Source: Oegoconia quadripuncta
Taxonomy: Eukaryota; Arthropoda; Insecta; Lepidoptera; Autostichidae
Reading direction: 5' to 3'
Assembly: GCA_949316235.1 (NCBI GenBank)
Contig: OX438744.1
Span: forward strand, 33,786,778 to 33,850,777
DNA: 64,000 nt
Shown in pieces: positions 4,464 through 63,539 of the stretch. Position 1 is the first letter of the stretch. Each line of letters opens with the position of its first letter. The position numbers and the translations under genes are program-made. The notes under the pieces are model-generated. The model was given only the letters and a program-made list of their open reading frames with translations. It had not been told where the DNA came from and made no database searches.

Positions 4464-4762
4464 AACCGCCTCAGTGGCTCAATGTAAACAACATTGGATT
4501 TACGATTCGGAGGTCGCGGGTTCGATCCCCAGCTGGGTACATGTTTAAGTACTCGGTTGGGTTGGTGGTATTTTAAATGTCCGCCTGGCTAGCTACCACC
4601 ATCTTATCTAAAATCTGCCGCCAAGCAGCAATGTTAATTGCATTGTTGTGTTCCGGTTGTCAGAGATAAGATAGCCAGTCCCCAGTCCCCCAAATGTGTT
4701 GGGGTTTCCGGGTCAGTACGCTTACACCTTCGACCTCATCTTCACGTAGTGCATAAAAAAAA
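4464..4762 (+). mobile_element. tRNA-derived SINE, family B (near full length)
   Basis: The head has an A-box-like GTGGCTCAATGTAAAC and a B box GGGTTCGATCCCC. The body carries CTACCACCATCTTATCT, TTGTGTTCCGGTTGTCAG and TTCGACCTCATCTTCAC and ends TGCATAAAAAAAA. This is the commonest repeat of the window. This copy has lost the stretch of about 36 nt between the last block and GCATAAAA that other copies carry (AACATCAGGTGTGATTGAGG). Confidence 0.85.
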
Positions 4763-5934
4763 TGTACTCACATATAGGTATAAGTATAACACGTGGCATT
4801 AAAAAAAATATATAGTTTGCCGTTTTGCCCATACATTGAAATCTAGAATGAATCTACTATAAGGATTAAATGTCCGTTTCCATACAAAGTATTACCTACG
4901 TCTAGGCTTTGACGTAATAGGAAATGCGTAGAAATGGGTCCTAATTGTTTGGCATATGAGATTATGTATTTATTAATACCTGAATTATCTTAATACCTTG
5001 GAAAGAAACAATAATAATGTGTCTCGTAGTTGACATTAGCTGTACGGGGTCGGGACTCCAGCATAAGTATATTAGTGACAGTGACATCATCACACATCAA
5101 TTCAACATTCTATATCAGTTCACTGTTGGACATAAACCTAGCGATAAGCATTTGGCAGTAATCGCTACGCCAGGTTGGATATTGCCCATATCGACCCCAG
5201 TCGCATTTCAAGACACCCACGGCAAGAGGACGGATCTTGACGACTAGGCTGGTGTGCTATTTTTATGCATTCTTTTTATAAAAAGACGGCTATTATTTAT
5301 ACTTCAATTTTGACAATTTTACTGGATTACGCTGTGCATTTTCGTTTTTTAGCTTAACTTAACACACTTAACAAATATTGGAAGTAAATTTTAACCTACT
5401 TCTAATTTTATCAAAATGAAAATATGTGTTGTATATATGTAGTTCGGATGACAATAGTATAATTTGGTAACTTGGAGCTGATCTGATGATGGAGCCAGGA
5501 GGTGGACGTTGGAACTCTTCAGTGGCTATTAGTAAAACCCTCGACTTTGGGCTCATACGATTCGTGTTGACGAGTCCAATATATTACATTTGGTGTCGAG
5601 GATCTGATGAAGTCAGATGGTGGAATTCTAGCGTGTTTTTAGTTTTTTAAACTACATATTTTTAATATAGACTGGAGTAGAAACTGTCAGGAACCACATG
5701 TCTAAGACCTAATGTTGTTGAAATAATGTCGCACACACATTACGATGTCAAAGATGATTGTCCGATATTTATCAGCATGAAAAATTATACATAATTATAG
5801 CAAGGCTTTAACGTCCACAACACAATCGATCGGAAACTATTTATACAAAAAAAAAAAACAGAACAATGACGCAAATATGTCGTTACTGGCATTCCGTTTG
5901 CTACAAAGATTTGCAAGAAGATATTCTTATTATA
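4763..5934. other. Unassigned; small repeat scraps
   Basis: Positions 5175-5250 contain CAAGACACCCACGGCAAGAG, a scrap of dispersed repeat R. The segment at 5460-5610 has GAGCTGATCTGATGATGG, the reverse of a motif in the repeats at 36550 and 59707. No gene was recognised. Confidence 0.4.
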
Positions 5935-6750
5935 CAGGGCGTCCCAAAGTTATGGGACATGAAGGGGAAGTACCTTAAATATTGTAGATAGTGAATTTTG
6001 CTCAAAGAAGACTTTATGTTATTTTTAAAAGTTAGTAATTCTGCATTCATAGATTTTCTAAAAATTACTTGCTTCGGCTGGGAATCGAACCGACTTAAAT
6101 GTGAAAAAAAAAACACCCTACTTTTATGATGCCAATCGAAAGAATAGCTAAAAAATAATAACTCTGCCTAAGTAACATAGTATTTTAAAAGAAAGGAACA
6201 ACATAAAATGATTGAGTCAAATTTCAAGAAAGTTATTTATTGCCGACGACGTTCGAAAAGTAGCGATATTATCATTCCAAAGATAGCATTGATTATTCGT
6301 AAATAAGTACCCACTTCATAAAATCAACAGGCAGCGGGCTCATTAAAAGATTGGCGATTTGCGTAAAACAAGAGGGATCACATTTTGAGCATTTAATTAA
6401 TTAATTTACAAAAAAATACCTACTTAATTGACTACGGCAGTTTCATGTATGTTTTTTATTTGATTAAAATGATTAATTTCACGTTGTTCCTTTCTTTTAA
6501 AATACTATGTTACTTAGGCAGAGTTATTATTTTTTAGCTATTCTTTCGATTGGCATCATAAAAGTAGGGTGTTTTTTTTTTCACATTTGAGTCGGTTCGA
6601 TTCCCAGCCGAAGCAAATAATTTTTAGAAAATCTATGAATGCAGAATTACTAACTTTTAAAAATAACATAAAGTCTTCTTTGAGCAAAATTCACTATCTA
6701 CGATATTTAAGGTACTTCCCCTTCATGTCCCATAACTTTGGGACGCCCTG
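5935..6750 (-). mobile_element. Copy A: non-autonomous derivative of the DDxD element
   Basis: An 816-bp element that starts and ends with CAGGGCGTCCCAAAG in inverted orientation, flanked by TA on both sides (the Tc1/mariner target duplication). The two TIRs are about 268 bp. Its interior is the reverse of copy C at 61095-63217 with about 1.3 kb missing. The deletion joins positions equivalent to about 61523 and 62833 of C at a shared ATTTT. Only the last 27 codons of the transposase frame remain, so it would need a transposase in trans. Confidence 0.92.
6320..6404 (+). pseudogene. Transposase C-terminal remnant (copy A)
   Basis: An in-frame stretch ending TTTGAGCATTTAATTAATTAA, equal to the end of the transposase frame in copy C apart from an AGA-to-AAA change. 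It shows where the ancestral gene stopped. The residue pattern HFEHL followed by a stop is a usual kind of C-terminus in this transposase group. Confidence 0.8.
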
Positions 6751-6959
6751 TATATACGTAATGGAGATCCGTATCACGCGCTGCACTAACCTCCGCGTCT
6801 CCACAATGATCTGACTAATTGAAAAAATATTATAAAAACTCTCTCAGCAGACAGGCCTTACAATGTGAGAGTACCAGGCTGTACTGTATCAGTTTTATGT
6901 CCCATAACAAGTATCTTTATGCATTTATTTAATTTACATAGCACATTTTTATTCCTTTG

Positions 6960-9363: not shown

Positions 9364-10473
9364 TCAATAGCGTAACGGGCCACCTTCACGATCAATAACT
9401 TGTTGCAAGCGGCCTCTCATTTCGGTAACCATTGTCCAACAAACATCTTTACCACGTAATGACTCCCATGTGGAAGTCACTAGATTATCTAGATTTGATC
9501 TAGATCTGACATCAGATGAGTCCCAATTGAGAGTCATCAAACCCCATAAATTTTCAATGGGGTTTAAATCGGGACTTTTGGCAGGCCAATTGATAACTGT
9601 GATATTATTCTGTGTTGAGATCCAATCACGCACAATACCAGCGCGATGCACTGCACAGTTATCTTGGACAAAATAAATGTGTTCGTTCGGATAGTGGATG
9701 CGCACAGTTGGTAACATTACGTCACGTAAAACTTCTAAATATGATTCACTATTGAAACGACCACCCACTTCAATTAATTCACCAGGTCCCATGGAACTCA
9801 TCCACCCCCAATATCCCAACGTTATTTTACCACTTAGTCTATTTGGCAGAATGTTAATTTCATTATAACGCCCTCCTCTTCGACGCCATAAAATCTTGCG
9901 GCCGTCCTTATCTGATCTAAACGTTTTCTCGTCCGTGAAAATAACAACGTTGTTTTGCCAGTCAAAATCTAAATATTCTTTAGAAAACCTCATTCGATTT
10001 TGGCGGTGATTGGATGACAAAGGAATTTTCCTTGCTGGTCGATACGGTTTAAAGCCTGCGATGTGTAAGTGTTTCCTTACAGTCTTCATTGCTATTCCGT
10101 GCAATACAGCAGTTGATCGTGTTGTCGAAAATGGATCCTCAGTATGCCTAGCCACGATCTCCTGGTGACGAAAAGAAGCTGACGTAAACATTTTCGGAGC
10201 TCGGCCGGGACGTTCACGCTGCAAGTCCCCTGTTTCGCCATAGCGTTTAAGCCATAACTTTACCGTATTTCTCTGTGAACAATTAATAAACTGACTATAA
10301 GATCGATCACAGCAATACTTAGATTTATCATTTATGCAACAAAGATTATAGTAAATGTGAAATTATGTGTTTGTTACCGTTATATGGAGGCTTCTTGCAA
10401 TTTCACTGATGGAAACATTTTGTTCATATAAAACGATTATTTTTGATTTTAGTAAATCCGTTAATTGCGGCAT
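9364..10473 (-). CDS. Tc1-like DD35E transposase, two exons, apparently intact
   Basis: A DNA transposase that would bind the element's TIRs and catalyse cut-and-paste movement in the nucleus. Exon 1 is 10378-10473 (32 codons from an ATG), the intron 10273-10377, and exon 2 9364-10272 ending in TGA, giving 334 residues, the usual length for the family. An N-terminal helix-turn-helix spans residues 1-45 and is split by the intron just before the recognition helix (RNTVKLWLKRY). An RPGRAP linker resembling a GRPR motif is at 53-58, and a second HTH at about 65-115. Catalytic residues are D146 in FTDEK, D236 in VQDN and E272 in NPIENLWG. The 35 residues between the last two make it DD35E, not the DD34E of classical Tc1. 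I see no frameshift or internal stop. Joining the exons is inferred from the splice signals and frame; exon 2 alone would lack the first helices. Confidence 0.85.
10273..10377 (-). other. 105-nt intron inside the transposase gene
   Basis: On the minus strand the donor is ACG|GTAACAAAC and the acceptor TTGTTCACAG|AGA. Removal is phase 0 and joins HTH residues ...SLHIT to RNTV... in the right register. The sequence between is AT-rich and has stops in the gene's frame, so the gene cannot be read through unspliced. An alternative AG two bases downstream would break the frame. Confidence 0.8.
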
Positions 10474-12295: not shown

Positions 12296-12443
12296 GACAA
12301 CCTGTTTGGTGTAGTGGTTAGAAACTCTGCTACTATACCAAATGGTCGCGGGTTCGAATCCCGCTAGGGGCATATGTTTGTATGATGAATACAGACGTGT
12401 TCCCGAGTTATGGATGTTTTTCATTTATACATGTATTTATTTA
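12296..12443 (+). mobile_element. tRNA-derived SINE, family C
   Basis: Head TTTGGTGTAGTGGTTAG (A box) and GCGGGTTCGAATCCCGC (B box inside a good T-arm hairpin), then the diagnostic GATGAATACAGACGTGTTCCCGAGTTATGG-type body (positions 12383-12417). Truncated after ATTTATTTAC. Other copies are near 28540, 28743, 29698, 31190, 32062, 44415 and 51271. Confidence 0.82.
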
Positions 12444-20540: not shown

Positions 20541-21350
20541 TATTTATTTATTTATCATTTATTGCACACAAGAAAAAAAAGACATACAGATACAACATAA
20601 TAGAGACGACACAACAGGTTCTGCTTATTTCTACAATGAAATTTCTTCCAGCAGACCTACGAAAGAGAGATATGACTGGAAGAGGCAGATAAGACGTGCA
20701 CAATCTAAAAAATGGATAAATATGATAGATAAAAAAACCTAACTGAATATAAATGTAACTACATACTAATAAGTACATAAATACATAAATAAGTACATAT
20801 TTCAATACATACGAATATAAAGTATAACATACATATAATACACGGAATAACACTATGAAATGGAAAGGTAATGTTCCTTAACTCTTTTCCTAAAGACAGC
20901 GATCGATGGACTGGCACGGATAGTGTGAGGAAGAGAATTCCACAGCCTGGCAGCATGCACAGTGAAAGAATGTGAGTAGAAGTCTGAGCGGTGAGAAGGG
21001 ATACACAGCAGAGTCCTGACATTAGAACGGCAGGGCTCATCCTGTGGCCGCGAAAAAGAAAAGCGCTCACGCAAATAAGAAGGGGAAGAAGGATTATGCA
21101 AGATATTATAGAGAAGAGAGACGACATGAGCATTCCTACGAAGACGAATCGGGAGCCACTTGAGCTGCGAACGAAGATGGGACACATGGTCGTACTTGCG
21201 CAGTCCGAAAATTAATCGTATGCACAAGTTTTGGAGACGTTCAAGTTTGTTAAGAAGCTCCTCGGTGGCGTCCAAGTAGCAAGAGTCGGCGTAGTCGAAT
21301 ATTGGGAAGATGAGAGATTGCACAAGAGTGATCTTAGTGTTTTGGGGCAA
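20541..21350 (-). mobile_element. 5'-truncated LINE, 3' third
   Basis: On the minus strand an open reverse transcriptase C-terminal frame (21350-20853) is followed by about 310 bp of 3' UTR with a CTGGAAGAAAT block and GTGCAATAAATGATAAATAA as signal and tail. The UTR block matches the lineage at 136 and 11970. The coding part is uninterrupted, so the insertion may be fairly young. Confidence 0.83.
20853..21350 (-). pseudogene. Non-LTR reverse transcriptase, C-terminal 165 residues
   Basis: The last part (thumb and C-terminal region) of the ORF2 polymerase of a Jockey/CR1-like retrotransposon, which copies the element's RNA at a nicked target. Visible features are SLIFPIFDYADSCYLD at residues 13-28, LNKLERLQNLCIR at 33-45, LKWLPIRLRR at 63-72, YNILHNPSSPSYLRERF at 81-97, and RLWNSLP with SPSIAVFRKRVKEHYL at the end. 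The catalytic fingers and palm (including the YADD box) and the endonuclease are absent, so it cannot act. The first ATG is probably not a real start but a methionine within the truncated protein. Confidence 0.85.
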
Positions 21351-29697: not shown

Positions 29698-30042
29698 GAC
29701 GACCGATTGGTGTAGGGGATAGTGACCCTGTCAGAGAAACCAACGGTTGCGGGTTCTAATCCCGCGAGGGGTAAATGTTTGTGTGATGAATACAACCATT
29801 TATTCCCGAGTCATGGATGTTTTTTTTTTTTTTTTTTTTAAATTAGAATGGGATCGCTCTTGACCTTATCTATCTATCTAATGTTTGTTTGAAATGTTTA
29901 TCTAAATATTTATGTATGTTTATCCATTATCTAGTTTCCATAGCACAAGCTTTGCTTAGTTTGGTGACTAGATGATTGGTGTAAGTGTCTGAAATATTTA
30001 TTTATTATTGTTATTTATTTTATTATTTATTGTAGACGAAAA
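29698..30042 (+). mobile_element. tRNA-derived SINE, family C, fullest copy
   Basis: Head CGATTGGTGTAGGGGATAG and GCGGGTTCTAATCCCGC, GATGAATACAACCATTTATT body, a T21 tract at 29819-29840 and a (TATC)n-like stretch (29866-29880) that may be a small inserted retroelement tail, then TTATCCATTATCTAGTTTCC, AAGCTTTGCTTAGTTTGG and a (TTTA)n tail. Confidence 0.82.
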
Positions 30043-30921: not shown

Positions 30922-31087
30922 TTAATGTTAATAGCATTGTTGTGTTCCGGTTGTCAGAGATAAGATAGCCAGTCCCCCAAATGTGTTGGGGTTTCCGGGT
31001 CAGTACGCTTCCACCTTTGACCTCATATTCACTTAACATCAGGTGTGATTGAGGTCAAGTACCAACCCGTTGGGCATAAAAAAAAAA
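30922..31087 (+). mobile_element. tRNA-derived SINE, family B, 5'-truncated
   Basis: Starts at AATGTTAATAGCATTGTTGT and runs through GTTGTCAGAGATAAGATAGC, the CTTCCACCTTTGACCTCAT block and AACATCAGGTGTGATTGAGG to GGGCATAAAAAAAAAA. The tRNA head is missing. Confidence 0.85.
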
Positions 31088-31642: not shown

Positions 31643-31922
31643 GGATGCACTGGGTACATGTTTAAGTACTCGGTTTGGTAGGTGGTAGGGCATTTTAAAT
31701 GTCCGCCAGGCTATCTACCACCATCTTATCTAAATCTGCCGCCAAGCAGCAATGTTAATAGCATTGTTGTGTTCCGGTTGTCAGAGATAAGATAGCCAGT
31801 CCCCCAAATGTGTTGGGGTTTCCGGGTCTGTACGCTTCCACCTTCGACCTCATCTTCACTTAACAACAGGTGTGATTGAGATCAAGTACCAACCCGTTTT
31901 GCATAAAAAAAAAGAAAAAAAA
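31643..31922 (+). mobile_element. tRNA-derived SINE, family B, head lost
   Basis: Begins just after the B box (TGGGTACATGTTTAAGTACT) and is otherwise complete to GCATAAAAAAAAAG. The 122-codon plus frame at 31872-32240 starts in its tail and is not a gene. Confidence 0.85.
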
Positions 31923-42111: not shown

Positions 42112-42263
42112 AGCAATGTCAATAGCATTGTTGTGTTCCGGTTGTCAGAGATAAGATAGCCAGTCCCCCAAATAAGATGAGGTTTCCGGGTCAGTACGCT
42201 ACCACCTTCGGCCTCATCTTCACTTAACATCAGGTGTGATTGAGGTCAAGTGCAAAAAAAAAG
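42112..42263 (+). mobile_element. tRNA-derived SINE, family B, 5'-truncated
   Basis: Begins AGCAATGTCAATAGCATTGT, nearly the same truncation point as the 30922 copy, and ends TTGAGGTCAAGTGCAAAAAAAAA. The GGGTTGGTAC-type block before the A tail is deleted. Confidence 0.83.
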
Positions 42264-44045
42264 ATAGACAAATAGGATGCACGTGGGCCTGGAAATCCTT
42301 TCGGATTTCGGTAATTTCAAAAAGTTTAGACTCCCGCATTCCCGGCCGAATATTTATTTACTTAGAACACAAGATAATTGAAGATTTTCGGTGGGTTAAA
42401 CGAGACAACCTTTTTGGACATTCTCGAAACCCCGCTGGACGTGGTTTTGGTTTCGCTATCACCACAAACTAAAGGTGATCAATTCCGTGAATTGCCGGGT
42501 CTAATAGAAAACAAGCAGTAGAGGTTTAAATTTTGACGCATTGCGCTACTATGATACGGCATCGTTTGCTTCGCATTGGGCTCATTTGGCGACGTTCCCA
42601 GTACACAGTTTCGGGTCAAATTTCATTTTACAATACTCCATTTCAACCAAATTAATTGTGTCTAACAAAGAACATGATGTGTTTGTGAGCAAGATTACTT
42701 ACAACATCAACGTGTGTCCGCCTGCCCAGCATGCCGATAAGGTAAATCTTGCCTTATGCTATTGTCACTGACTGAGTAAATCAGAATGCTGATGACGAAC
42801 TGCGGCTGTGACTAATAATGTTTGTGACCTTCAGCGTCGAAATTATTTTTTTCTTTTGGATGAGACCTGCATGCAAAGTTTCAAGATCCTAAGTGTACTG
42901 GAAATTACTAAACATTTAGATTACAAGTTAGTGAGTCGGTCAGTGAGTGCGGAAAACTATCATTTGAGGAGTTCCTTAATTGAAAAATTATTAAAGTTAA
43001 ATATTATTATCTCAGCAAATTATCAGAATTCAAAATTCATGTATATTATAGACTTAAATACTAGGACCTAGACCTAATATAAGGGTTAATTAGCGTGTCA
43101 CCAGTTTCTATATAAATGCATTAAGCAAGGGAATCATCCCTTGCTAAAATTTAGGCTTAATCTATCAACATGACATTTCAGTCCTGTCATTTTGGTTTAA
43201 TTCTTTCAAAATAGCATTTTCGCACAGGTTTTAAAGAGCATGACAGCTAAATATTTTATGATTTCTCAACTGACATAAATAAAATGTTATGTTGTCCTTG
43301 TTGTGTGCCATTTGTCAAAAAAGGATAGACGAGTTTAAATGTAGTTTAAACGTATGCTAACCGAATCGACACCATTAGCCACGTTTACTGACGAATGAGA
43401 AAACATCTAGAAATCTGTTATCTGTCTGACGTACCAGAGAATTCATTAATACCTCACTTCTTTGGAAACCAGCAATACATATTTATCTTTAAACAAGTAT
43501 GTAGGTAGCTGTATAAGTAGACAACGAGTACATACATCTGTGCTTTCACGAGAACTCAGTCTGCGACTCATTATCAAGGTCTTAGATACCTTATCACTGT
43601 CACTCAATAGCTGCTGCGAGATATTTTGCGGATATCTACATTTTAGACTCGATATGAAGTTAAAACCTAATTAGTAGGTAAGAGAAAGGATCGTTCAACA
43701 CGAAGTACTAATCTGGGTTGCCAGTTGCAAATAATAATTTATCATTGTTTATCTGATATGGAAGCTGCTTCTCTCCTGGGCTAACGAGAGACGGTACTTA
43801 GAGAAAGTACAGACTTGGGTATTAACTGTGATTCATTTGCAATCGTAAATTTTATTTCTCTCTCTATGATTGATTCCTAAATATGTCAGAGGCATTCTTC
43901 GGAGTTTCTTTTTTAGATCGTTAAAGGAATTAGGTGAATCATTTGGTATTCAGATAAATGCATAAAAACGTTTTCTCTGTATCAATTTTGTTTTTTTTTA
44001 TTTGTTGGAGGGGGCTCCCGTGTAATGTTTCTAACTTCCAGTAGG
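42264..44045. other. No gene recognised
   Basis: Frames at 42236-42472, 42541-42771 and 42808-43071 have no domain. A short inverted repeat (AAGCAAGGGAATCATCCCTTGCT) is at 43123-43145. Confidence 0.4.
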
Positions 44046-44133: not shown

Positions 44134-44414
44134 AACGGGAAAAGAAGTACACCACAGCCTTACAATACTAGAAACAGACGGCAAGTTTACATACTAAAGA
44201 ATTAAATATAATCACATGATAGGCCACGTTTCATGTGATTGTTCACAGGGGCATATGTCTCAAACAAGTCGTAAATTTTTTCACAGAATATTGCGCCGAT
44301 TTCTCTAATGCCAACGTTATAAATTATAATACTTAGTTAGAATCCAGCAAGATCGACTCAATTAATCGCGTATCACTGTTGAAGCAAGTCCGTTTCTAGA
44401 AATAATAGCAGCAG

Positions 44415-44592
44415 ACGACCATTTGGTGTAGTGGATAGTGACCCTGTCTGCGAAACCAATGGTTGCGGGTTTGAATCCCGCAAGGAATAAGTGTTTGTTT
44501 GATGATGTTTACATTATCGGTTATCTATTATTCATGAAATAAGCTTTACTTAGTTTGAGACTAGATGATTGGAATACTTATTAAAAAAAAAA
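44415..44592 (+). mobile_element. tRNA-derived SINE, family C
   Basis: Head CCATTTGGTGTAGTGGATAG and GCGGGTTTGAATCCCGC, then a shortened body, CTTTACTTAGTTTGAGACTA and an A12 tail. Confidence 0.82.
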
Positions 44593-53568: not shown

Positions 53569-53575
53569 TAATATA

Positions 53576-54432
53576 CAGGGCGTCCCAAAGTTATGGGACA
53601 TGAAGGGGAAGTACCTTAAATATCGTAGATAGTGAATTTTGCTCAAAGAAGACTTTATGTTATTTTTAAAAGTTAGTAATTCTGCATTCATAGATTTTCT
53701 AAAAATTATTTGCTTCGGCTGGGAATCGAACCGACTCAAATGTGAAAAAAAAAACACCCTACTTTTATGATGCCAATCGAAAGAATAGCTAAAAAATAAT
53801 AACTCTGCCTAAGTAACATAGTATTTTAAAAGAAAGGAACAACGTGAAATTAATCATTTTAATCAAATAAAAAACATACATGAAACTGCCGTAGTCAATT
53901 AAGTAGGTATTTTTTTGTAAATTAATTAATTAAATGCTCAAAATGTGATCCCTCTTGTCTTACGCAAATCGCCAATCTTTTAATGAGCCCGCTGCCTGTT
54001 GATTTTCTAATCATTTTATGGTGAACACTCGATGTGATATGGCACAATTCTGTTTGCAACTTATTTACGAATAATCAATGCTATCTTTGGAATGATAATA
54101 TCGCTACTTTTCGAACGTCGTCGGCAATAAATAACTTTCTTGAAATTTGACTCAATCATTTTATGTTGTTCCTTTCTTTTAAAATACTATGTTACTTAGG
54201 CAGAGTTATTATTTTTTAGCTATTCTTTCGATTGGCATCATAAAAGTAGGGTGTTTTTTTTTTCACATTTAAGTCGGTTCGATTCCCAGCCGAAGCAAGT
54301 AATTTTTAGAAAATCTATGAATGCAGAATTACTAACTTTTAAAAATAACATAAAGTCTTCTTTGAGCAAAATTCACTATCTACAATATTTAAGGTACTTC
54401 CCCTTCATGTCCCATAACTTTGGGACGCCCTG
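53576..54432 (+). mobile_element. Copy B: non-autonomous derivative of the DDxD element
   Basis: An 857-bp element with CAGGGCGTCCCAAAG ends, 268-bp-class TIRs and TA on both sides. Same orientation as copy C. Its deletion joins TTTGCAACT (C about 61584) to TTATTTACG (C about 62848) at a shared ACT, removing about 1.26 kb. It keeps about 46 codons from the 3' end of the transposase gene. Deletion points differ from copy A, so the two arose separately. Confidence 0.93.
53922..54060 (-). pseudogene. Transposase C-terminal remnant (copy B)
   Basis: On the minus strand LQTELCHITSSV and on to EGSHFEHLIN-stop at 53922-53924, uninterrupted. Where copy C has GAA TAA TTG this copy has GAA TTG, so B preserves the older reading. 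Confidence 0.85.
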
Positions 54433-54860
54433 TATAAAAGCGAAAGTCACTCTGTCTGTCAGATATATAAAACTCCAAGACAAGAGAGATAAGTTATCGA
54501 GCTTCAAAATGTTTGTATGAAATTCAAGGACTCACGGCGTCACTTCACTAATCGAAAATGAATAGCGAATGTGACTGGGGCACGAGTAGAAGATTCCATA
54601 GGTACAGTCCTATCAAAATGATATCAACGACCGGGATGATCAAAATGTATCTTAACATTTAAGAGAAATGTTCAGGTTCATATCATAATCTATTTTGCTT
54701 TGTTTTATGTCCGCGCCTGCTGTATCAAGGAAAAATGATTTATTGCAATATATATTTAAGGTAAATTTTACATAGATGTTAAGAAGACATGGCTGCTAAT
54801 ATAATTTTGTAGCTGACTATACCTACATCCACAATAATAAGTAAATGCAAAAATCAGAGC
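54433..54860. other. No gene recognised
   Basis: 54530-54600 (CACTAATCGAAAATGAATAG) resembles 27090-27130. No coding signal. Confidence 0.35.
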
Positions 54861-54995
54861 TGTCACAGATAAGATAGCCAGTCCCCCAAATGTGTTGGGG
54901 TTTCCGGGTCAGTACGATTCCACCTTCGACCTCATCTTCACTTAACATCAGGTGTGATTGAGGTCAAGTACGAATCCGTCGTGCATTAAAAAAAA
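54861..54995 (+). mobile_element. tRNA-derived SINE, family B, 5'-truncated
   Basis: TGTCACAGATAAGATAGCCA to GTCGTGCATTAAAAAAAA. Truncated at nearly the same place as the 45072 copy. Confidence 0.83.
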
Positions 54996-60514: not shown

Positions 60515-61062
60515 ATGGCTGCTAGAGTACGTAAGTTGATACATACCATGAAGTTGCTTCGCGCGGCCACTGACGGATGGCTTCTCAAATCGGTTTATTT
60601 GGCCCTGGTTCAATCTCTTATTGCTTACTGCATCTGTGTATGGGGAGGTGCAAATACATCCACCCTTATCGTCCTTGAGAGAGCTCAAAGAGCTGTGCTG
60701 AAGGTATCCTTGCGGAAGCCTATTCTTTTCCCGACTTCTCTACTTTATGCAGAGGCACAAGTGCTTAGTGTTCGCAGGCTATATCTGTTGAAGGTGGTGG
60801 TGGAAATGCACAAACGAGTTCTTTCTAGCCGCGACTATATCGACCTTTTAAAAAGACGAATTTTTAGGGTTCCAGTGCCAACTGTGCGCAGCTCTTTTGC
60901 CCACAGGTTTTAAAAATTTCTTTATCCCTACATCTATAATAAATTTATGAGGGAACTCGACTTCAGAGAGTTAAACGTACTTGAACTGAAGTTTAAAATT
61001 CTAAATGTCTTGCTTGGTTGGTCGTACAAAGATGCCGAAGACTCCTTGAGAATTCTTGCTTA
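60515..61062 (+). pseudogene. Non-LTR reverse transcriptase C-terminal fragment
   Basis: A reverse transcriptase thumb and C-terminal region: ARVRKLIHTMKLLRAA, LKSVYLALVQSLIAYCICVW near residues 24-43, LERAQRAVLKV, YAEAQVLSVRRLYLL, RSSFAHRF. An in-frame TAA (60911-60913) is followed in the same frame by 49 more codons (ELDFRELNVLELKFKILNVL..., WSYKDAEDSLRILA) to a TAG at 61060-61062, so one nonsense change broke a longer end. The catalytic core is absent. It belongs to a different LINE family from 20853 and 55822; copy C lies 32 bp downstream. Confidence 0.8.
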
Positions 61063-61094
61063 GCTATGCCCTTATATAATTACGTACATATATA

Positions 61095-61362
61095 CAGGGC
61101 GTCCCAAAGTTATGGGACATGAAGGGGAAGTACCTTAAATATCGTAGATAGTGAATTTTGCTCAAAGAAGACTTTATGTTATTTTTAAAAGTTAGTAATT
61201 CTGCATTCATAGATTTTCTAAAAATTATTTGCTTCGGCTGGGAATCGAACCGACTCAAATGTGAAAAAAAAAACACCCTACTTTTATGATGCCAATCGAA
61301 AGAATAGCTAAAAAATAATAACTCTGCCTAAGTAACATAGTATTTTAAAAGAAAGGAACAAC
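61095..61362 (+). repeat. Left 268-bp TIR of copy C
   Basis: Starts CAGGGCGTCCC. GTCCCAAAGTTATGGGAC forms a small terminal hairpin (5-bp stem) that could be a protein-binding site. It contains GGGAATCGAACCG, the complement of a pol III B box, and ends AAAGGAACAAC. Confidence 0.92.
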
Positions 61363-61440
61363 GTGAAATTAATCATTTTAATCAAATAAAAAACATACAT
61401 GAAACTGCCGTAGTCAATTAAGTAGGTATTTTTTTGTAAA

Positions 61441-61566
61441 TTAATTAATTAAATGCTCAAAATGTGATCCCTCTTGTCTTACGCAAATCGCCAATCTTTT
61501 AATGAGCCCGCTGCCTGTTGATTTTCTAATCATTTTATGGTGAACACTCGATGTGATATGGCACAA
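61441..61566 (-). pseudogene. Transposase C-terminal extension lost to a new stop codon
   Basis: Downstream of the TAA at 61567-61569 the same frame stays open for 41 codons (LCHITSSVHHKM to EGSHFEHLIN) before a TAA at 61441-61443. Copy B carries this segment joined directly to the preceding residues, so it was once part of the protein. Confidence 0.85.
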
Positions 61567-62505
61567 TTATTCTGTTTGCAACTCGCCTACGTTCTCGTAT
61601 CGCTTTTTGTATAGCATATCTTTCACGTATCCCCAAAAGAAGAAATCTAATGGTGTGAGGTCCGGGGATCTGGCCGGCCATCTAATCGGTCCATTTGTAC
61701 CAATCCATGTAGGAAAACATTCATTTAGAAAATCTGCTGCTCTCCGACTATTATGAGCCGGAGCTCCATCTTGTTGGAAAATTAAGTTTTCTTGCTCCGC
61801 CGCGGAATGGTTTCTTATCTTATCCCTTAAAATTTGAAGTATTCCTAAATACTTTTCTGTGTTCAAGGTTCCTTGGTAAAAATGGATTAAGAAAACCCGG
61901 TTTTTTAAAAGTCCGCACCAACAGTTGAGTGAAAAACGCACTTGGTTATTAGTTTCAGTCACTCGTAGGGGATTTTCTTTAGACCAAATACGATTATTGT
62001 TGCGGTTATACATACCGTTATTGCTAAAGTTAGATTCGTCTGTCCAAATAATATTATCCAAAAAATTTGGATCTTCGAGCAATCGTGCCTGGATATCAAG
62101 ACAGAAATTTTTTCTCCTTTCTGTATCGCCCGGAAGTAATTTTTGAACCAATCGTCCTTCAACATAACTCTTAAAACCGTGTTTTTTTAATACACGGTGT
62201 ATTTTACTTTTTGAAACTCCAATTTCATGTTCTCCTTCTCTCACCGATGCTTTCGGAAAAGCCGAAAAGTAAATTAAAATACCAAGTTCTTCGTCGTTGA
62301 TCGTATGGTTTTCTTGCTGTGGTTCTCTTGGGCGTTTATCGAAACGTCCCAGAGTTTTCAAATTGTTCACAAGCCTTTTCAAAACTTTACGAGACGGTAT
62401 TTGTCTATCAGGATATTTTACGCCATACCACCGCAAACTTCTAGAGATATCTTTATCGTTCAAAAAATATGCTTCCATTAGATCAAAACTTACTTGATAT
62501 GCCAT
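61567..62505 (-). CDS. DDxD mariner-like transposase, C-terminally truncated
   Basis: Would bind the TIRs and move copy C, and possibly A and B in trans. The 312-residue frame starts at an ATG with an N-terminal helix-turn-helix region (about 1-60; IPSRKVLKRLVNNL at 36-49) of the DUF4817 kind and a second HTH-like region at about 68-110 (KASVREGEHEIGVSKSKIHR). Catalytic residues are D156 in IIWTDESNF, D246 in FQQDGAPAH and D287 in RSPDLTPLDFFFWG. With 40 residues between the last two it is DD40D by my count. The TAA at 61567 comes from a 3-bp tandem duplication; the intact protein would be about 354 residues. All three catalytic Asp precede the stop, so residual activity is possible but unproven. 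About 445 bp of non-TIR sequence precede the start and could hold the promoter. Confidence 0.86.
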   Translation of the reverse strand: MAYQVSFDLMEAYFLNDKDISRSLRWYGVKYPDRQIPSRKVLKRLVNNLKTLGRFDKRPREPQQENHTINDEELGILIYFSAFPKASVREGEHEIGVSKSKIHRVLKKHGFKSYVEGRLVQKLLPGDTERRKNFCLDIQARLLEDPNFLDNIIWTDESNFSNNGMYNRNNNRIWSKENPLRVTETNNQVRFSLNCWCGLLKNRVFLIHFYQGTLNTEKYLGILQILRDKIRNHSAAEQENLIFQQDGAPAHNSRRAADFLNECFPTWIGTNGPIRWPARSPDLTPLDFFFWGYVKDMLYKKRYENVGELQTE

Positions 62506-62573
62506 GTTCGCAATAAATTAACACAATAACACTTGTGTAAGTGAATTGAGACTAAACAGATCAATATCCGAAA

Positions 62574-62707
62574 AACAAACGCTCGCACATACTGTTCCAT
62601 TTTCAAATTTAAGAACAACATTTAAAAATATCACTTCTTTTTAAAATATCTTAAAAAGTATGCATTCAAACAAACGCTGTCATAAACTGTTCCATTTTCA
62701 AATTATA
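62574..62707. repeat. Pair of subterminal direct repeats in copy C
   Basis: ACAAACGCTCGCACATACTG at 62574 and CAAACGCTGTCATAAACTG at 62671 are each followed by TTCCATTTTCAAATT. The two units of about 38 bp lie about 97 bp apart, between the transposase start and the right TIR. Confidence 0.75.
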
Positions 62708-62949
62708 AATTATTTATTTTTGTTTTTAATTTGCCTTCTGTCTAGCTTACAGAGGACGTATTGAAATACAAGTTTTATCATTTCATCTACACGTGCACTT
62801 ATAATAAGGAAAACTATGTTAGTACCTATTTTATGAAGTGGGTACTTATTTACGAATAATCAATGCTATCTTTGGAATGATAATATCGCTACTTTTCGAA
62901 CGTCGTCGGCAATAAATAACTTTCTTGAAATTTGACTCAATCATTTTAT

Positions 62950-63217
62950 GTTGTTCCTTTCTTTTAAAATACTATGTTACTTAGGCAGAGTTATTATTTT
63001 TTAGCTATTCTTTCGATTGGCATCATAAAAGTAGGGTGTTTTTTTTTTCACATTTGAGTCGGTTCGATTCCCAGCCGAAGCAAATAATTTTTAGAAAATC
63101 TATGAATGCAGAATTACTAACTTTTAAAAATAACATAAAGTCTTCTTTGAGCAAAATTCACTATCTACGATATTTAAGGTACTTCCCCTTCATGTCCCAT
63201 AACTTTGGGACGCCCTG
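62950..63217 (-). repeat. Right 268-bp TIR of copy C
   Basis: Inverted partner of 61095-61362. Read on the plus strand it has GGTTCGATTCCCAGCCGAAG. The open frame at 63036-63239 lies almost wholly inside it; the same frame is seen in all six TIRs of copies A, B and C because the DNA is repeated. Confidence 0.92.
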
Positions 63218-63539
63218 TATATATGTCTATTATAGGTAATATCAAGAATTGCTCTAGTATGGTGCTATCTATATATTTGCCGCACACACGCGTATACACA
63301 CAACCACACCCCCCTCACACATCCTCTGCTACACACATTTACTCGCTTACTCTTGATACAACATATTATGGAAACATATTTAAGTTAGTTAGTTTGCCTT
63401 TCTTTTTGTTAATAGGCAGAAGCATGCAAATTTTAATTAAATGATCTCACACCCATACACATGCGCACGCGCAACTTGTACAATTCTATCGTGCTAGTTA
63501 CATCTAAGGCTAGTTCTGCATGCATGTCTATCTCCCTAA
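63218..63539. other. Low-complexity, no gene
   Basis: A CA-rich stretch at 63281-63340 (ACACACGCGTATACACACAA) and nothing recognisable otherwise. Confidence 0.45.

Follow-up and report, generated by a model that had tools for sequence, protein, structure and literature searches.

The described systems most like the transposon discussed here are the aphid LTIR elements, a clade of DD40D/DD41D transposases with long terminal inverted repeats (TIRs), described in 2017 with Apismar5.1/5.2 and MITE5.1/5.2 (PMC5490172). These elements are 2.3-2.4 kb long, the transposases have 351-370 amino acids, and the miniature inverted-repeat transposable elements (MITEs) derive from independent internal deletions with microhomology (PMC5490172). 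We report a system that resembles it in its DD40D transposase, its long TIRs and its deletion MITEs. It lies in a window of 64,000 nucleotides of the moth Oegoconia quadripuncta (assembly GCA_949316235.1, contig OX438744.1, here C3, positions 33786778-33850777; the whole genome has 622.6 Mb in 45 contigs), which holds one full-length copy (C) and two deletion derivatives (A and B) of the same element. In our opinion this is very probably a single Tc1/mariner-type transposon, with long TIRs and a DD40D transposase of the DUF4817 kind, that is amid or just past a very recent burst and whose deletion derivatives would have been moved in trans.

The differences from the aphid clade are also clear. 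The aphid TIRs are 460-466 bp long and of other sequence, as compared with 268 bp here, and each aphid lineage has one complete copy, with MITE sublineages in which 3-5 copies are 86-90% identical (PMC5490172), whereas here a 34-mer of the transposase gene has 1,653 genome matches. The sequence-only reading had regarded long TIRs with DD40D spacing as uncommon. This we have to give up: both, together with deletion MITEs, were already known in the aphid LTIR clade (PMC5490172), and DD40D proves to be nested within DD41D. In DD41D/VS (Visitor) elements of bumblebees (PMC8472432) and of a gall aphid (PMC9783078) DD40D is likewise reported as a change within DD41D, but the bee genomes have 1-3 intact copies each and up to 401 copies in all (PMC8472432), and far more are intact here. 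Another recent burst in a moth is that of silkworm BmMITE-2, with 2,371 full-length copies; that family is non-autonomous (PMC2997013), whereas gene-bearing full-length copies make up a large part of the burst here. We recognised no report of the present element in the DD40D/DD41D/LTIR literature, Lepidoptera included, subscription papers being outside the scope. The class, long-TIR DD40D elements with MITEs, is already known; what is new is a member of it caught in an extremely young burst.

The three copies and their parts are as follows (window coordinates, with the strand where a feature has one).

61095-63217, minus strand (that of the gene): copy C, the full-length element, 2,123 bp, from sequence and alignment
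61095-61362: left TIR of C, 268 bp, identical to the right TIR at 268 of 268 positions; the ends diverge from position 269
62950-63217: right TIR of C, also 268 bp, of the minority haplotype that lacks the variants at TIR positions 49, 134 and 162
61567-62505, minus strand: predicted transposase frame of C, 312 amino acids, DUF4817 helix-turn-helix and DDE_3, DD40D, truncated by an in-frame TAA
61566-61571, minus strand: ATTATT, a 3-nucleotide tandem duplication private to C and the source of the stop; one genome match
61441-61566, minus strand: last 41 codons and stop codon of the coding region, lost from the frame of C but read in frame by B and by the full-length copy L001; coordinates by arithmetic
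5935-6750, plus strand: copy A, a MITE of 816 bp derived by deletion, in the opposite orientation to C
6320-6324, minus strand: deletion junction of A, 5-bp microhomology ATTTT
53576-54432, minus strand: copy B, an 857-bp deletion derivative, oriented as C
54059-54061: deletion junction of B, 3-bp microhomology ACT
61091-61094: left flank of C, TATA (outer TA of the target and duplicated TA)
63218-63221: right flank of C, TATA
5931-5934: flank of A on the window's left, TATA
6751-6754: flank of A on the window's right, TATA
53572-53575: left flank of B, TATA
54433-54436: right flank of B, TATA

The positions which the sequence-only reading gave to the three copies are right on re-checking, and so is its claim of shared TIRs of the 268-bp class. 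A 28-bp tip pattern allowed three mismatches has six matches in the window, all of them mismatch-free, and none in 100 shuffles. Alignment of all three copies gives related ends of 268 bp, beyond which the two ends of each copy diverge; the left and right TIRs of A and of B show three mismatches each, at the same positions 49, 134 and 162. (The three-way MAFFT alignment misplaced A and B inside the deletion and was used for the TIR part only, the rest being taken from BLAST.) Two segments of A, 441 and 394 bp long, align to C at 99.5 and 99.2% identity, and two of B, 494 and 378 bp long, at 99.4 and 99.2%. L016, a full-length copy of the majority type (2,120 bp), exceeds A in length by 1,304 bp and B by 1,263 bp, and the breakpoints of A and B differ, in agreement with the interior of about 1.3 kb that had been described as missing. 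Both TIRs are indeed kept in A and B; of the 3' end of the transposase gene, also said to be kept, A has only the last part of the frame and B slightly more. The TA described at the flanks is present, but the flank is actually TATA on both sides and not TA alone.

Genome-wide, a protein search gave at least 127 matches, and all 127 that were scored (of 7,226 candidates; 74 lie on contig C1 and 53 on contig C2, C itself not being among them) are identical to C over 312 amino acids and stop-free, with an open frame of 357 amino acids in 125 and of 347 or 344 in two. The 34-mer, taken from the 3' half of the gene and allowed one mismatch, has 854 + 799 matches against none for a control; A and B lack it. 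The 34-mer matches listed are 100 exact ones, all within the first 34.45 Mb of C1, and 44 of them recur among the 127 protein matches. Six of the other 56 were fetched, picked for their absence from the protein list and hence not perfect copies: five are deletion derivatives (870, 1,024, 997, 1,057 and 1,125 bp) and one, L058, is full-length with two amino-acid changes, G75D and Q188L. L040 contains a further full-length copy outside the protein list. Perhaps about half of the gene-bearing copies are intact, which would give some 700-900 genome-wide, as extrapolated from part of one chromosome and six copies. A genome search for further copies had been proposed from the window, and it shows abundant full-length kin (at least 127) and 176 matches to the deletion junction of A; the scale and the youth of the burst had not been foreseen, nor had the uniform TATATA target. 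Four random 10-kb genome stretches, a sample too small for copy density, held no copy. A genome search with 300 bp of TIR DNA (0 matches) was disregarded; it skips very common words, and the window alone has six TIRs.

The copies are extremely alike. Thirty fetched full-length copies, 2,119-2,121 bp long, differ pairwise by a mean of 1.49 substitutions in 2,120 bp and by 6 at most, and of their private substitutions 8 fall in non-coding columns (1,071 in all) and 4 in coding columns (1,049). Ten A-type copies and A itself, picked by junction and not by identity, differ by a mean of 0.69 in 816 bp, 29 of 55 pairs being identical. The lepidopteran mutation rate is near 3e-9 per site and generation, and given such a rate the 2.5e-4 private non-coding changes per site point to an age of the order of 100,000 generations. 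A useful comparison is Mariner-2_DF of the fire ant, a DD34D-type lineage. It too is a very young mariner expansion by identical copies, with 857 copies, a nucleotide diversity (pi) of 0.005 and at most 11 identical copies (PMC6307670), as against a pi of 0.0007 and 13 copies identical throughout in our 30 selected copies; the burst here looks younger, the diversity sample being a selected one.

Established MITE families usually outnumber their parents. The junction of A, as a 30-mer allowed one mismatch, has its 176 genome matches against none for a control, and all ten of these that were fetched are 816 bp long with TATA flanks. To judge from sequence, A is a genuine MITE: it is short, bears TIRs, has no intact gene and exists in many uniform copies alongside full-length kin. 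Intact full-length copies outnumber the A MITE, because C1 and C2 carry at least 74 and at least 53 full-length matches as against 16 and 18 among the 100 exact A-junction matches listed; taken as a whole, the deletion derivatives may well be as numerous as the intact copies or more so.

The missing element positions are about 431 to 1731 in A and about 486 to 1747 in B, and the two deletions are independent, because each copy keeps bases the other lacks, so that they are not nested. Seven derivatives compared have seven different breakpoint pairs, and both 268-bp TIRs are complete in all of them; the five gene-bearing ones keep the 3' part of the gene because they were found by the 34-mer there, that is, by selection. 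Read ungapped, the junctions have microhomologies of 5 (A), 3 (B), 5 (L056) and 8 bp (L057), a 3-nucleotide filler (L059), a 1-nucleotide filler (L060) and a blunt join (L061). In 200,000 random joins within C (left break 269-700, right break 1500-1855) the probability is 0.076 for a microhomology of at least 3 bp and 0.010 for one of at least 5 bp, and by our own arithmetic the binomial chance of four junctions in seven with at least 3 bp is near 0.001, the L060 and L061 junctions being unsure.

As for the protein, Pfam places DUF4817 above and DDE_3 just below its cut-off in the frame of C. The DD40D spacing noticed earlier is confirmed, with D156, D246 and D287 as the predicted catalytic residues and 40 residues between the last two. 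Among the homologues scored, the best 120 of 972, the spacing is 41 in 101, 40 in 16 and unscorable in 3; Chilo suppressalis proteins at 60-66% identity are among the homologues. We built a quick maximum-likelihood tree with a midpoint root from the search hits alone, without published LTIR or Visitor sequences; its 115 rows are 113 of the 120 homologues (seven were dropped for length or missing catalytic residues), C and a second transposase of the window. C and 12 homologues form a DD40D clade (Shimodaira-Hasegawa approximate likelihood-ratio support, SH-aLRT, 99), which joins eight DD41D rows (99). Because this clade is nested among DD41D rows, while four other DD40D rows stand elsewhere in the tree, the DD40D spacing reads as a minor change within DD41D. 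A separate DD41D branch holds two proteins of Uroleucon aphids (P0098 and P0102). A homologue from a public assembly, P0001, is 97% identical and is an intact transposase of 353 amino acids, the length found in L001 as well; a sister species or horizontal transfer would account for it.

The structure model of the 353-residue L001 protein has a predicted local distance difference test score (pLDDT) of 86.5 and a predicted template-modelling score (pTM) of 0.66. Compared with the PDB by Foldseek, it is most similar to Mos1 transpososomes (4u7b, E 2.4e-17, with a TM-score of 0.62 by query length) and to the catalytic domain of Sleeping Beauty (E 3.1e-11); phmmer gives SB100X at 3.6e-8 and Mos1 at 7.5e-6. 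With this predicted Mos1-like fold, TIRs and a TA duplication, the element is assigned to Tc1/mariner (IS630-Tc1-mariner), and the transposase of the family would catalyse its movement by cut and paste. A spacing of 40 or 41 residues and long TIRs mark the long-TIR DD40D/DD41D group (LTIR, Visitor), and the element has a spacing of 40 and TIRs of 268 bp. Membership of maT was rejected, as maT requires DD37D and the element is DD40D. The ends, CAGGGCGTC, do resemble the CAGGG start of maT (PMC8472432) and the AAGGGTGTC of rosa, but the DD37D spacing of maT and the short TIRs of rosa (DD41D; 27-32 bp in aphids) differ from what is found here (PMC5490172).

The target site is uniform. Of the insertion sites, 36 distinct ones were scored (33 fetched full-length copies and A, B and C, with identical flanks merged), and every one has TATA on both sides, which amounts to TATATA around a duplicated TA, and the same holds for 10 further A-type copies and for 5 gene-bearing derivatives. 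Copies with altered tips were left unscored, namely the second copy in L031 and in L032 and the left end of L058, whose right flank is TATA. In the window TATATA centres are 1.3% of TAs. Two copies stand inside repeats that have empty kin: L027 lies in a short interspersed nuclear element (SINE), L024 in a satellite whose unit is about 64 bp long. Because most of the empty kin have six bases at the site (TATATA, TATACA, TATATG; TATCTA and similar), we read the element as CAGGG...CCCTG, the duplication as TA and the target as TATATA, the length of the duplication being taken from the diverged empty paralogues of two sites. ZB of zebrafish, a young Tc1/mariner element of DD34E type (PMC9777934) with 20 full-length copies, also has a palindromic AT target with a central TA and is described as preferring ATATATAT, and ZB and Sleeping Beauty are reported to prefer similar AT palindromes (PMC7913693); the uniform TATATA target here looks stricter than such a preference. 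The tRNA-like SINE family in question (TTGGTGTAGTGG...GGTTCGAATCCCGC) also occurs in the window at 12297-12388, 29698-29789 and 44414-44505, L027 being inserted in one copy of it, and L024 consists of the element within an array of the satellite, unit about 64 bp.

How these observations would fit together is, in our view, as follows. Intact copies, of 2,120 bp with 268-bp TIRs and a 353-residue transposase, would insert at the TA within TATATA and duplicate it. Most likely, the gap left by excision would be repaired from a template, the repair broken off and the ends joined by short homology or with filler, so that the interior is lost. Derivatives that keep both TIRs would be movable in trans, and A would in this way have been amplified to about 176 copies. 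Aborted gap repair after excision is an established model for internal-deletion products, and it fits the deletions as we read them. A bolder version, on which we find ourselves evenly divided, is that the element is a currently active recent arrival which inserts at TATATA only, with intact copies still about as common as defective ones and a swarm of independent deletion derivatives, one of which (A) has begun to amplify. If this is true, the birth of MITEs and the selection among nascent MITEs can be observed in a single genome. The origin of MITEs from full-length transposons is usually reconstructed long after the parent died. Here well over a hundred intact and near-identical parents occur together with several independent deletions and one amplifying product, and the copies examined have diverged by about 0.1%; the breakpoints are therefore still readable, and each step is open to testing in living animals. 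The system also bears on why one deletion product amplifies and others do not.

The sequence-only reading saw in the window a direct view of MITE formation from C as the autonomous parent. The first part stands, as A and B are internal-deletion derivatives of the family and A is a MITE, but C does not fit the role. Its frame ends at a stop which comes from a duplication of ATT; this duplication is absent from all 30 fetched full-length copies, from B and from P0001 as read, and a 32-mer that includes it has one match in the genome, C itself. Where C stops, L001 and P0001 continue for 41 more residues, and the lost part holds C340 and G345, invariant in 60 aligned sequences, together with the last two helices of the predicted structure. 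C thus appears to have lost its function and is unlikely to be autonomous; it would be a full-length copy spoilt later by the 3-nucleotide duplication. That C itself gave rise to A and B is hardly credible, even though A and B are 99.2-99.5% identical to it over the common parts and have identical ends. B is without the private stop, and the three right-TIR variants of A and B are common to 21 of the 30 full-length copies (7 others have 134 and 162 only), whereas the state of C, with none, is a rare one found in 2 of 30. Because neither this private stop nor this minority haplotype is shared by A and B, their sequences make C the parent of neither. A C-like copy before the duplication, followed by conversion of the right TIR, is conceivable as a parent. 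Indeed the two TIRs of one element probably exchange sequence, because site 49 and sites 134/162 are seen in all four combinations (L050, compared with A and with L025/L029, has 49 alone), with recurrent mutation as a possible alternative, and the perfect TIRs of C may result from such exchange. Five of the derivatives carry the majority variants, namely A, B, L056 (with one extra), L060 and L061; L057 has 134 and 162 only and L059 has none. That the deletions arose by replication slippage or by TIR-mediated hairpin deletion instead of abortive gap repair seems to us unlikely; the long TIRs could pair, and three of seven junctions read ungapped are without microhomology, but the breakpoints lie in the single-copy interior, except in L059, where the right break is at the TIR boundary.

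It is very improbable, in our judgement, that the family is older and that its copies are alike through homogenisation by gene conversion. The four combinations of right-TIR variants do speak for TIR conversion or recurrent mutation; against an old family, the insertions occupy separate sites whose TATA flanks are intact, derivatives inserted at unrelated places are no less uniform, and a BLAST comparison of C with about 266 kb from fetched loci, a small sample, returned no diverged relic; every match was a near-identical copy, including a TIR truncated where L003 ends. This absence of relics suits a recent arrival. The idea that the near-identical copies are assembly duplicates can almost be dismissed: a pair of neighbouring copies does recur in a 14.7-kb block that is near-identical on C1 and C2 and adjoins an N run on C1, but 36 distinct flank pairs remain once identical flanks are merged. 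A target-site duplication of 4 bp (TATA), or ends that include the TA (TACAGGG), without a six-base target, we regard as improbable; TATA does flank every scored copy on both sides, and the palindrome alone cannot separate the models, but most empty paralogues at both sites have six bases and not four or two. For the recent burst with deletion derivatives moved in trans, as proposed above, there remain points that tell against it or against the ease with which it is read. The 1,653 matches are not a count of intact copies, because deletion derivatives with the 3' part of the gene also match, and the diversity of the 30 copies is biased downward, because they were the best matches of the search. 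Microhomology is not universal at the junctions, three of seven lacking it when read ungapped; L060 and L061 are unsure because BLAST gives gapped overlaps of 7 and 4 bases there, and with seven junctions abortive gap repair cannot be told apart from other kinds of end joining. The deletion in B may be an event present in one copy only. That the derivatives differ in their right-TIR haplotypes may go back to TIR exchange after their origin, as in L050, as well as to different parents. Finally, the empty paralogues are diverged, some SINE copies have other lengths, and only two sites are informative.

The 14.7-kb block corresponds to C1:5953070-5967766 and C2:38577352-38592045 (L031 and L032 with their neighbours) and contains two full-length copies and, by eye, a carboxylesterase-like frame. 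A composite transposon was considered for the two copy pairs at the same spacing of 4,491 bp and rejected, as both belong to this one block, a segmental or assembly duplicate. Regarding viruses as possible carriers, viral_contigs contained no exact match to the TIR tip, and none of 25 stretches with a transposase pattern encodes a relative. The TIR (61095-61362 and the other TIRs) contains GGTTCGATTCC, similar to an RNA polymerase III B box; a tRNA or SINE origin of the TIR was rejected, since ARAGORN detected no tRNA in the window, Rfam had no hit there that reached the gathering score, and a permissive Rfam search of 61095-61600 yielded three hits, with E of 1 to 3.

Other mobile sequences share the window. 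The second transposase frame (9364-10224, minus strand, 286 amino acids) has by eye a Tc1-like catalytic end (VQDN...SPDLNPIE) and is no more than 27% identical to any sequence in the tree, which makes it a different family. Frames at 60515-60913 (plus strand) and 20853-21350 (minus strand) look by eye like the reverse-transcriptase tails of retrotransposons without long terminal repeats (non-LTR). An unrelated repeat family, CCAGTCCCCCAAATGTGTTGGGG, has at least six copies in both orientations, at 4682-4748, 30924-31086, 31751-31913, 42115-42277, 54833-54995 and elsewhere.

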